From Oscillospiraceae bacterium (GTDB taxonomy: Bacteria > Bacillota > Clostridia > Oscillospirales > Oscillospiraceae): a stretch of 58,889 nucleotides of DNA. The stretch spans positions 1-58,889 of the forward strand of contig JAGPMA010000008.1 of NCBI GenBank assembly GCA_018053145.1, read 5' to 3'. Below the pieces are notes generated by a model. That model worked only from the letters and a program-made list of their open reading frames with translations, had not been told where the DNA came from and made no database searches. Shown here piece after piece: positions 27,836 through 39,650 of the stretch; the stretch's first letter is position 1; every line of letters starts with the position of its first letter. A program made the position numbers and the translations under genes.

Positions 27836-28009
27836 CCTAAAAAACCGTCCCTCTCGTTTCAGAACAAGAAACCATATGGTTCTATAATATTTACTATCAC
27901 TGTATTATAAGCGATATTTCTGGTAAAAACAACATTATTATGCTAAAATACGCGTATATGGACATTTGGACCACCTTGACGAGTAAGTTATACATTGGAG
28001 GAATTCGAC

Positions 28010-28819
28010 GTGACAGATATTATCATCATTGGCGGAGGTCCGGCAGGCGTTTCTGCCGCCCTTACAGCCAAGAATAGGGGCAAAAGCGTTAAAATAATTT
28101 CGAACAGTGCCGAGCAGAGCAATCTATGGAAATCAAAGTCGGTAGAGAATTACCCAGGCTGTCCAAACGCAAGCGGAGAGGATATTTTAAAGCTGTTTCG
28201 CAAGCAGCTTGATGATGCAGGCATAGAAATCATAACCGCGAGGGCGCTTAATGCCCTTTCAATGGGCAGGAGCTTTTCCGTGTCCTGCGGTCAGGAATAC
28301 TACGATTGCAAATCAATTATCCTCGCTGTCGGCATAACTCAGCAATCGACCTACCTTGGGGAAAACGAATTTCTCGGCAGGGGAGTGTCCTACTGCGCAA
28401 CTTGCGACGGAATGCTTTACAGAGGGAAAAATGTCGCGGTTATCGGGCTTAACGAGGAAGCCGCAAGCGAGGCCGATTTTTTGCGCTCAATCGGTTGCGG
28501 GGTCGAGTATTTTGACAAAAACAGAGCAAAAAAATATGAAATTCGCGGAAATGAAGCTGTTACAGAGTTAATTGCAGATGATACTGCCTATTCCGTAGAT
28601 GGTGTCTTTATCCTCCGCAGCACAATTGCGCCGAGCAGCTTTCTCTCCGGCCTTGAGCTGGAAAACGGACATATAGTTTCCGACGGAACGATGAGAACAA
28701 CTGTAAACGGAGTTTATGCCGCCGGTGACTGCATTGGCAGGCCCTATCAAATCGCCAGAGCTGTCGGGCAGGGGAACACAGCCGCGCTTTCAGCCTGCGA
28801 ATATCTTGACAAAATATAA
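28010..28819 (+). CDS. Thioredoxin-reductase-like FAD disulfide oxidoreductase, compact form
   Basis: I chose GTG 28010, with GGAGGA 8 bp upstream, giving 269 residues. FAD-binding GGGPAG is at residues 8-13, the redox-active CATC at 129-132, and the second FAD motif is GVYAAGDCIG. It is about 35-45 residues shorter than typical TrxB. The expected NADPH-binding GGGxSA is replaced by GLNEEA (146-151), and no HRRxxxRA follows. This resembles the ferredoxin-dependent flavin thioredoxin reductases of clostridia more than NADPH-dependent TrxB, but that assignment is inference. No thioredoxin gene is adjacent. Confidence 0.85.
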   Translation: MTDIIIIGGGPAGVSAALTAKNRGKSVKIISNSAEQSNLWKSKSVENYPGCPNASGEDILKLFRKQLDDAGIEIITARALNALSMGRSFSVSCGQEYYDCKSIILAVGITQQSTYLGENEFLGRGVSYCATCDGMLYRGKNVAVIGLNEEAASEADFLRSIGCGVEYFDKNRAKKYEIRGNEAVTELIADDTAYSVDGVFILRSTIAPSSFLSGLELENGHIVSDGTMRTTVNGVYAAGDCIGRPYQIARAVGQGNTAALSACEYLDKI

Positions 28820-28834
28820 GCTATAACGTATAAT
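28806..28834 (+). promoter_or_regulatory. Consensus promoter of the valS T-box transcript
   Basis: A perfect TTGACA (28806-28811) and TATAAT (28829-28834) are 17 bp apart. The -35 lies within the last codons of the upstream oxidoreductase gene. Confidence 0.85.
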
Positions 28835-28839
28835 TGCGC

Positions 28840-29064
28840 AATAGTTAAAGGCATTGATGGGAAAGTGCAATTGTTCTGTACGGCAAAGAGAGAAAGCGTT
28901 TGGTGAGAGCTTTCGCGTGCAATGATTGCTGGTCGTCCTTAAGCCAACCGAAGGAAATGTCGGTTCGTGTGCTCGCGTTAAGAGCATAGAGTGCGTCGTT
29001 TTCACGGCGAATTCAGGTGGTACCGCGTTTATTTCGCCCTGAGCATATGCTCAGGGCGTTTTTG
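28840..29064 (+). promoter_or_regulatory. T-box riboswitch (probable Val specifier) upstream of valS
   Basis: The leader has the stem I distal elements AGAGAG and GGTGAGAG. The T-box antiterminator sequence AGGTGGTACCGCG lies at 29015-29027, and a terminator follows (CGCCCTGAGCAT with ATGCTCAGGGCG, 29035-29058, then T). In the specifier region, GTCGTC at 28932-28937 offers a Val codon (GTC) twice. Uncharged tRNA-Val would stabilise the antiterminator and switch on valS. Confidence 0.92.
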
Positions 29065-29116: not shown

Positions 29117-31741
29117 ATGACAAAAGAGCTTTCAAAGGTCTATGAGCCCAAAGAAGTGGAAAAGCGAATCTATGATATGTGGGAAAAGGGCGGTGCCTTC
29201 AAGGGCGTCCGCGACCCCGAAAAAAAGCCGTTTACAATAGTTATGCCGCCCCCCAATGTAACAGGGCAGCTGCATATGGGCCACGCGATGGACGCAACAC
29301 TGCAGGATATTCTTACCCGCTATAAGCGGATGAAGGGCTTTGCAGCGCTGTGGGTTCCGGGAACTGACCACGCCGGTATTGCAACCCAGATTAAGGTTGA
29401 AGAAGCTCTCCGCAAGGAAGGGCTTTCACGCCACGACTTAGGACGTGATAAGTTCCTTGAACGCGTGTGGGACTGGAAAAACAAATATGGTGACCGAATT
29501 GTTGACCAGCAGAAGCAGCTTGGCGCTTCCTGTGATTGGGAGAGGTCAAGATTTACAATGGACGAGGGCTGCTCAAAAGCAGTCCGCGAAGTGTTCGTTT
29601 CCCTCTATGAAAAGGATCTCATCTACAAGGGCAGCCGCATAATCAACTGGTGCCCTCACTGTACCACCGCACTTTCTGATGCCGAGGTCGAATATAAGGA
29701 TAAGCCGGGTTTTCTCTGGCATTTGCGCTATCCGCTTACTGACGGCAGCGGCTTTGTAATCGTTGCCACAACACGACCCGAAACCATGCTTGGCGACACG
29801 GGCGTTGCAGTTAATCCAAACGACGAGCGCTACAAGAGCATTGTCGGTAAGACCTGCATGCTGCCGCTTATGAACAGGGAAATCCCCATTGTTGCGGACG
29901 ATTACTGCGACATGGAATTCGGCACCGGCTGTGTTAAAATGACCCCTGCGCACGACCCCAACGACTTTGAGGTCGGGTTGCGCCACAATTTGGAGGTCAT
30001 CCGTGTTTTGGATGACAACGGCAAGATAAACGAGCTTGGCGGTAAATATCAGGGACTCGACCGCTACGAAGCGAGAAAAGTCATAGTGGCTGAGCTTGAG
30101 GAGCTGGGCTTAGTCGAAAAAATCGAGGAGCATCAGCATAATGTCGGCACCTGCTATCGCTGCGGAACGGACGTTGAGCCCATAATCTCCGCCCAGTGGT
30201 TTGTTAAGATGCAGCCGCTTGCACAGGAAGCAATTCGCGTTGTAGAGGACGGAGAAACCAAGTTCGTTCCCGAACGCTTCAGCAAAATCTATACTAATTG
30301 GATGGAAAATGTCCACGACTGGTGCATTTCCCGTCAGCTATGGTGGGGCCATCAGATTCCCGCGTGGTACTGTGCGGACTGCGGCCACATGACAGTTTCG
30401 CGCGAGGACGCAACTGAATGTGAACACTGCCACAGAAAAAACATTACTCGCGACGAGGACGTTTTGGACACTTGGTTTTCCTCTGCGCTTTGGCCCTTCA
30501 GCACACTCGGATGGCCTGATAAAACAGCTGATTTAGAATATTTCTATCCGACAGACGTTCTTGTAACGGGCTATGACATTATCTTTTTCTGGGTTGCGAG
30601 AATGATATTTTCCGGTTGTGAGCACACGAAGAAAGCACCCTTCCACACAGTATTGATACACGGCTTAGTTCGTGACGACAAGGGACGGAAAATGTCAAAA
30701 TCACTCGGAAACGGAATTGACCCGCTTGATATCATCGACCAGTATGGCTGCGACGCTTTGCGTTTCAATCTTGTCACGGGCAACAGCCCCGGAAACGATA
30801 TGCGCTTTTACACTGAGCGCTGCGAATCAATGCGTAACTTCGCAAACAAAATTTGGAATGCAAGCCGCTTCGTGATGATGAACCTCACCATCGACAAATG
30901 TGAGCTGCCCGATAAGCTTGAAACCGAAGACAAGTGGATTCTTTCAAAGCTTAACAGCGTAATTCAAGAAATTAACGATAATATGGATAGCTACGAGCTT
31001 GGCATTGCAGCTCAAAAGGTTTCGGACTTCATTTGGGACAGCTATTGCGACTGGTATATTGAGCTTACAAAGCCGCGTCTTAACGGCGAGGATGAGGAAA
31101 GCAAGCTTAACGCTCAAAAGGTGTTGCTCTATGTGCTTATCGAGATGATGAAGCTTCTGCATCCCTTCATGCCGTTTATAACAGAGGAAATCTGGCAGGC
31201 AATTCCGCACGAGGGAGACATGCTGATTCTTGAGAGCTTCCCCAAGTTTAACGATGCGCTTAGCTTCCCGAAGGACGAGCAGGACTTTGAAATATTGATG
31301 GACGCCATCAAGGCAATACGTTCTCGAAGAGCGGAGATGAACGTGCCGCCATCCCGCAAGGCGCACCTTATAATTGTCACTGAAAAGGGCGAAATCTTTG
31401 AAAACGGCAGAGCCTTCCTAATGAAGCTTGCCTATGCCGGAGAGATTACCGTAATGACTGATGCACCAAATGACGTTGAAGGCATGGTTTCCGTTGTGAC
31501 GGGTGAAGCAAAGATGTTCATGCCGATGGCGGATTTGGTAGACCTTGCAAAAGAGCGAGAAAGAATCGAAAAAGAGCTTGAAAAAGCGAAAAAGGAATAT
31601 GACGGACAAATGGCAAAGCTCTCAAACGAAAGCTTCCTTGCCAAAGCACCTGAAAAGGTAATAGAAGCCGAAAAAGACCGTGCAAACAAAGCAAAGGCGC
31701 TAATGGACAATTTAACAGATAGCCTCAATAAGCTTCGTTAA
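29117..31741 (+). CDS. valS: Valine-tRNA ligase
   Basis: The 874-residue class I synthetase has [16 protein letters not shown] (HIGH motif variant), an editing CP1 insertion ([17 protein letters not shown]), [17 protein letters not shown] and [12 protein letters not shown]. It ends in the ValRS-specific C-terminal coiled coil ([19 protein letters not shown]). The ATG has AGGAGGT 8 bp upstream. It is induced through the preceding T-box and terminated by a wobble-containing hairpin (31793-31826). Confidence 0.97.
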
Positions 31742-39357: not shown

Positions 39358-39650
39358 AAAAACGCCCTCCGTAAAATAAATTACAGAGGGCGGAAAATTT
39401 TATCCGCGGTACCACCTCAGTTTACCGTTTCCTCGCAAAAACGGCCTCGTCGGGTACGGCGCAATACGCGATACCCCAGCGCTGTAACGGGCGTTCCCGA
39501 TGCTATCTACTTGCGGCATTGCCGCTGTCGAAAGCACAGCTCGCGAAATGTATTCAATCAAAATATCCCTACTGTCTTGCACCAAACGACAGCTCTCTGA
39601 AGGAAATAATCGTGATTTACTTGTTTCCGGTCATCGCTTTTGTTGTGGTT
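39358..39650 (-). promoter_or_regulatory. T-box riboswitch (candidate Tyr specifier) upstream of the symporter
   Basis: Read on the minus strand, the leader has the stem I distal elements AGAGAG and GGTGCAAG (about 39599-39576). The antiterminator sequence GAGGTGGTACCGCG lies near 39418-39405, and a terminator follows (arms 39363-39374 and 39381-39392, then T). The specifier candidate is TAC at 39552-39550, 19 bases after the distal hairpin, the same distance as the GTC of the valS leader. The box sits about 30 bases before the symporter ATG. Confidence 0.9.

Follow-up and report, generated by a model that had tools for sequence, protein, structure and literature searches.

The valS locus and its leader

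The window, a stretch of 58,889 nucleotides of a contig from an Oscillospiraceae bacterium, carries on its forward strand an open reading frame (ORF) for a thioredoxin-reductase-like FAD/NAD(P) oxidoreductase (27995..28819, start codon putative; PF07992, 89.5 bits), followed on the same strand by valS, the gene for valine--tRNA ligase (29117..31741; TIGR00422, 1180 bits against a cut-off of 612). Against TIGR01292, the upstream frame reaches 195.6 bits, under the cut-off of 343. Between the two genes lies a T-box leader RNA (28845..29044, forward strand), which scores 102.6 bits against RF00230 in Infernal (E 1.5e-21; gathering score 93), and these matches agree with the original prediction, which had read a valS T-box from the letters of the DNA.

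The leader is preceded by a promoter with a 12/12 consensus match (28806-28834, forward strand), composed of a -35 hexamer TTGACA (28806..28811) and a -10 hexamer TATAAT (28829..28834) with a 17-nt spacer. With spacers of 16-18 allowed, the two strands of the window together hold three sites of this kind, this one among them. As had also been noticed from the sequence, the -35 hexamer lies in the last codons of the oxidoreductase ORF, which ends at 28819: TTGACA shares its letters with CTT GAC AAA, the codons for Leu-Asp-Lys. A promoter that matches 12/12 and has a 17-nt spacer stands ahead of valS at 8 of the 9 genus loci tested, the present locus counted, and this recurrence is beyond chance; one further genome outside the 9-locus scan (G004) has a perfect promoter too, read by eye. 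At seven of the eight perfect-promoter loci, the -35 hexamer falls within the ORF, in the stretch that encodes EYLDK or EYIDK at its end.

The original prediction had taken this overlap to link the two genes closely, and by position the link stands. It could mean that the oxidoreductase gene and valS form one regulated unit, and the genes are indeed adjacent at nine genus loci; we consider such a unit unlikely, however, because in G007 the -35 hexamer lies downstream of the oxidoreductase stop codon, and because G009 (L175/L053) retains the gene pair with a promoter of at best 10/12 and with no T-box found. Promoter/ORF overlaps, moreover, arise easily in compact genomes. As judged from the DNA letters, what is conserved is the overlap and the adjacency, and these do not prove functional coupling. 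In G009, the oxidoreductase gene and valS are separated by about 90 bp.

The leader can be divided into the parts of a known T-box. The lower Stem I helix, assigned from covariation, is formed by GGGA (28859..28862) and UCCU (28936..28939), and ahead of its 3' strand stand the GUC specifier (28932..28934) and a conserved purine (28935). Stem II is a 6-bp hairpin, AACCGA/UCGGUU (28946..28965), with the octaloop AGGAAAUG at 28952-28959. It is followed by a Stem IIA/B pseudoknot with a CGUUA box (28966..28985), in which, by eye, the loop GCUC (28971-28974) pairs with GAGC (28982-28985), and CUC/GAG swaps with CCC/GGG among the nine genus rows, also read by eye. The antiterminator, UCAGG-UGGUACC-GCG...CGC-CCUGA (29013..29042), holds the T-box bulge UGGU at 29018-29021 according to the RF00230 alignment, and its 3' strand doubles as the 5' strand of an intrinsic terminator hairpin (29035..29058) with a T run after it, so that the two structures compete. 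All of these parts lie on the forward strand. For the distal double T-loop motif of the long Stem I, the conserved letters align to RF00230 (letters only). Against dinucleotide shuffles, the leader as a whole folds better (z -3.0), and Stem I folded alone does not (z -0.71). In the minimum-energy fold of Stem I, the lower helix is shifted by a pair, the first GUC is open, and the UC of the second triplet is paired.

Judged by its parts, the leader is an ordinary T-box of valS that has one specifier, and its Stem II is a variant. Like the Bacillus subtilis tyrS-type T-box represented by RF00230, it has its specifier in an internal loop within a long Stem I, the conserved AGAGA and UUGGUG letters, a IIA/B pseudoknot, a UGGN antiterminator, an intrinsic terminator, and an aminoacyl-tRNA synthetase gene downstream.

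The register of the specifier

The specifier region reads GTCGTC (28932-28937), as the original prediction had said, and the Val specifier lies within this stretch. That prediction had gone on to suggest that either GUC (28932-28934 or 28935-28937) could pair with tRNA-Val, which would give redundancy. By letters, both triplets are Val codons, and specifier loops with two codons exist: a review describes overlapping codons for two tRNAs in the specifier loop of a C. acetobutylicum T-box (Saad et al. 2013, as described in PMC4052509). The valS leader resembles the T-box described there in that its specifier stretch offers more than one readable codon, but differs in that its second triplet is paired in a conserved helix and that the same tRNA would read it.

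We take the first GUC to be the specifier, because the lower helix GGGA/UCCU and the TBDB rule, which takes as specifier nucleotides 2-4 of the specifier bulge, counted from its 3' end (as given in PMC7778990), fix the register. The Infernal alignment to RF00230, a check proposed along with the original prediction, likewise puts the specifier on the first GUC, inside GTCGTC; it has a gap one column ahead of the specifier and treats the S-turn columns as deleted. As far as the sequence allows us to judge, the second GUC does not serve as a codon but consists of the conserved purine G28935, a position for which a stacking role is described (PMC7583486), and of UC, the first two bases of the 3' strand of the lower Stem I helix.

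Relatives of the valS leader agree with this register. valS was sought in 59 genomes, and 54 valS loci were read (one of them, L103, repeats L049); by the bulge motif and Rfam matches, 34 distinct T-boxes were recognized at these loci. In 32 of them the specifier could be anchored by a pattern (GT, any base, a purine, the helix, and then a GAG-like ending), and where several matches occurred at one locus, the match standing at the Stem I position was picked by hand. The first triplet is GTC in 28, GTG in three and GTA in one, and this Val codon in 32/32 is partly built in by the GT-any-purine anchor, which leaves free the third base and the second triplet. The base after the first triplet is G in 30 and A in two, a purine being required by the anchor. 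The second triplet is GCC in 17, GTC in nine, GCT in three, ATC in two, and GGC in one; the tandem GTC is therefore not conserved as a pair (9/32). The two unanchored T-boxes (L093 and L101) read, by eye, GUC-A and GUU-G. Four T-boxes (L059, L060, L061 and L082) lie about 200-650 nt upstream of valS, with space for a small ORF.

In a structure-blind alignment (A1) of 31 of the 32 anchored T-boxes, from which L071 was dropped for a long insert, the four pairs of the lower Stem I helix are 97.6% paired with double changes at every pair, the fourth pair failing in three of the 31 rows; a six-pair structure that includes two K-turn-side pairs reaches 96.8% pairing, which falls to 35.5-52.7% if it is slid. 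The pair that holds the U of the second triplet (28862-28936) is GC in 19 T-boxes, AU in 11 and CG in one, and is thus Watson-Crick in 31/31, with 12 double changes. To read the second GUC as a codon would break this helix, and the base after it is C, not a purine. The pheS T-box of the same genome (TIGR00468, above cut-off) reads UUC-G-UCCC, so that the same 'GUC' follows a Phe codon. Taken with the 9/32 count, these observations make it very improbable that either GUC serves, and the claim of two usable Val codons is not supported; a two-codon specifier is rejected, its second triplet lying in a covarying helix.

The first GUC, then, is the specifier, and the tandem codon can be the product of the rule that a purine and a helix follow the specifier; therefore, specifier calls made from letters alone need the helix. 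In another relative (L067, the valS T-box of G018), the first triplet is GUG and the second GUC, the helix yielding this second triplet despite the different specifier.

The Stem II hairpin, its distribution and its possible role

Class I T-boxes are described as having a Stem II with an S-turn, and class II (glycyl) T-boxes as having no Stem II (PMC10482949). The valS leader fits neither description. Unlike the tyrS-type T-box, it has as Stem II a 6-bp hairpin that bears a AGGAAAUG loop and lacks an S-turn; like the class II T-box of B. subtilis glyQS, it combines a long Stem I with the lack of a Stem II S-turn, but it differs from that T-box in having a Stem II hairpin, a IIA/B pseudoknot and a Val specifier.

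Eleven genomes of the genus were searched, and a valS T-box was present in nine. In all nine, Stem II begins one nucleotide after AGC and has six pairs and an eight-base loop, and the Class I mark, the Stem II S-turn (GAA/AGUA), is absent from 9/9. The octaloop is AGGAAAUG in seven, AGGAAAGC in one and GGGAAAUA in one. In the 32-row table, the S-turn GAA of the Stem I specifier loop, a further difference from the tyrS-type T-box, is absent from 8/8 genus rows, and 21 of the 24 rows from outside the genus were flagged as keeping it. Only 11 of these 24 were flagged for the strict pattern of a Stem II S-turn, and therefore not every other relative has a textbook Stem II; the flag that this strict pattern gave to one genus row (L046) is wrong, as the match ran beyond Stem II.

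The cysE T-box of the same genome (L011) has the same Stem II hairpin with a AGGAAAUG loop and without an S-turn. In the genus, valS and cysE T-boxes share the hairpin, which is present in other Bacillota as well. A scan of genome contigs with a fixed loop (GGAAATG) gave at least 120 stretches, of which 80 loci with 81 matches were examined. Among the matches listed, 59 are T-box-like, having AGAGA on the upstream side and CGUUA after a gap of 27 or less; 40 of these 59 form a stem of 5-6 bp that closes exactly on the loop (31 of six, nine of five), 19 have 0-3 bp, and none has 4 or more than 6 bp. Two of the other 22 matches listed have a 5-6 bp stem, and at random places a stem of at least 5 bp occurs in 0.96%. 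Members of the Clostridia, Erysipelotrichaceae, Acholeplasmatales and Bacillales are among the taxa of the 40 stem-bearing matches listed. Eleven T-box-like pattern loci were examined, and nine have a stem of at least 6 bp; two (L146 and L159) have none.

The loop was not preset in a second test, on cysE. Among 30 loci of relatives, 22 had a T-box bulge motif and a UGC/UGU specifier was anchored in 20, two of which (L457 and L469) were judged spurious, leaving 18 T-boxes. Eleven of these 18 carry AGGAAAUG on a 6-bp stem (one stem extends to 8), and two have the loops AGCAATGTC and AGTAATGTC, containing GCAA and GUAA; of the remainder, two resemble S-turn stems and three are of neither type. 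When the four inner bases of the loop were left open (pattern AGNNNNTG, 61 genomes), at least 150 matches were obtained. Among the 150 listed, the stem reaches at least 5 bp in 11, with the loops AGGAAAUG (nine) and AGGCAAUG (two), so that the inner bases are GAAA or GCAA, i.e., GNRA, in all 11; none of the other 139 listed, including one AGGAAATG, one AGGAGATG and one AGGTGATG, has a stem of this length. The result suggests a GNRA tetraloop set on G.U and A.G, as far as loop letters can reveal structure.

An order-wide pattern gave mostly chance matches, and by eye a hairpin is present in three of 34 rows, with GAAA in G168 and with GCAA in G031 and G176, which belong to one genus. A class-wide sample of 158 T-boxes (14 from the present genome, 29 loci and 115 fetched) is biased to the top Rfam scorers, and seven of the 29 loci (L303, L308, L309, L317, L318, L319 and L323) were wrongly cut or uncut. 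The GGAAATG hairpin test was passed by two of the 158, both from the window's genome, and therefore the hairpin type is uncommon in this sample of top Rfam scorers; the S-turn stem test was too strict there, sorting 95 of the 158 as 'other', many of them with GAA...AGUA letters. A second alignment (A2) holds only sequences picked for having a stem, and its covariation therefore describes the hairpin and does not test it.

What may such a hairpin do? The S-turn is described as clamping the minor groove of the specifier-anticodon duplex through tandem A-minor contacts, with changes of its adenosines costing more than 1000-fold in tRNA binding (PMC7583486), and S-turn point mutants are reported to lose tRNA-induced docking at 7.5 mM Mg2+, which high Mg2+ compensates in part (PMC10651847). 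By analogy, the AGGAAAUG loop, read as AG-GNRA-UG, may dock on the same duplex by A-minor contacts as the S-turn does. The position of the tetraloop is near the height of the S-turn, not identical with it: in S-turn stems of the class-wide sample, GAA begins 8 or 9 nt past GAGC in 37 of the 46 measured, and the tetraloop starts 9 nt past AGC in the nine valS T-boxes of the genus and 10-11 nt past it in 11 cysE T-boxes. This docking proposal draws on position and analogy, and the distance of the loop from the K-turn side differs between the cysE and valS T-boxes.

The hairpin may instead be a short, stable GNRA cap without a docking role, the affinity for tRNA coming from Stem I as it does in glycyl T-boxes that lack Stem II, and this we regard as quite possible, if somewhat short of an even chance. 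GNRA loops are common stable caps, and the loop does not keep one distance from GAGC, which is 7 nt in 9/9 genus valS T-boxes and 8-9 nt in 11 cysE T-boxes. The class II glycyl T-boxes, as described in PMC10482949, have no Stem II domain. A simple cap accounts less readily for a stem of near-constant length (six bp in 31 and five in nine of the 59 T-box-like matches listed) and for the recurrence of bases outside the tetraloop, AGGAAAUG occurring in 7/9 genus loops and in 11/18 cysE T-boxes. According to the docking reading, a group of Bacillota T-boxes, including the present one, would have an undescribed architecture, in which a Stem II of near-fixed length with an AG-GNRA-UG loop docks by A-minor contacts near S-turn height as an independent solution. 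We offer this tentatively and think it rather unlikely, giving it lower odds because the loop distance from GAGC differs between the valS and cysE T-boxes.

Literature searches on T-box Stem II, S-turns and GNRA loops did not turn up the hairpin type of Stem II; two comparative studies of T-boxes, from 2008 and 2009, and Saad 2013 lie outside that scope and may already describe it. A natural group of T-boxes without an S-turn but with a GNRA loop nearby would test what Stem II must supply, and the variant merits a structural test.

The tRNA-Val set, the probable control of valS, and other T-boxes of the genome

Forty tRNA matches were found in the genome, all of which could be typed. Three are tRNA-Val genes, with the anticodons UAC, CAC and GAC, and all three end in ACCA, to which the UGGU bulge of the leader is complementary. 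The specifier GUC agrees with the downstream gene, valS, and fits tRNA-Val(GAC).

It is very probable that a transcription-attenuating tRNA-Val T-box controls valS, with the first GUC as its specifier and the second in the helix; the docking of a GNRA-type Stem II is a part that we infer. The leader transcript would begin a few nucleotides past the -10 hexamer, at the predicted start, and GUC 28932-28934 would pair with the anticodon of tRNA-Val(GAC). If the tRNA-Val is uncharged, its ACCA end may pair with the UGGU bulge (29018-29021), so that the antiterminator is held and valS is read; if it is charged, the hairpin 29035-29058 would terminate transcription.

The genome has 14 T-box matches, eight above the gathering score, and all 14, read by eye, fit the order of a triplet, a purine and a helix. 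The apparent specifiers, also read by eye, are UAC, GUC, GCC, CUC, GUC (valS), AUC and UGG for L001 to L007, and UGG, UAC, ACC, UGC, AUC, UUC and GCC for L008 to L014. The downstream proteins were scanned for 11 of the 14. Seven of these 11 are over an NCBIfam cut-off: ilvB, leuA, valS, ilvA, cysE, a PorC/KorC-type gamma subunit, and pheS. The other four (L001, L003, L007 and L009) are named by below-cut-off matches only, and three of them have a Pfam domain.

A second T-box in the window (39383-39643, reverse strand; 127.4 bits) has an apparent UAC specifier and lies ahead of a gene for a sodium:solute symporter (PF00474), which is a candidate for a tyrosine-responsive transporter, judging from that specifier. 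Two other T-box matches elsewhere in the genome, both under the gathering score, were also noticed. One (L009, C5:23000-23262; 91.5 bits), with an apparent UAC specifier, precedes a gene for an AMP-binding, acyl-CoA ligase-like protein (PF00501), an odd target for a T-box; the other (L012, C81:33619-33841; 81.5 bits), with an apparent AUC specifier, precedes a gene for a pyruvate/2-ketoisovalerate oxidoreductase gamma subunit (TIGR02175).
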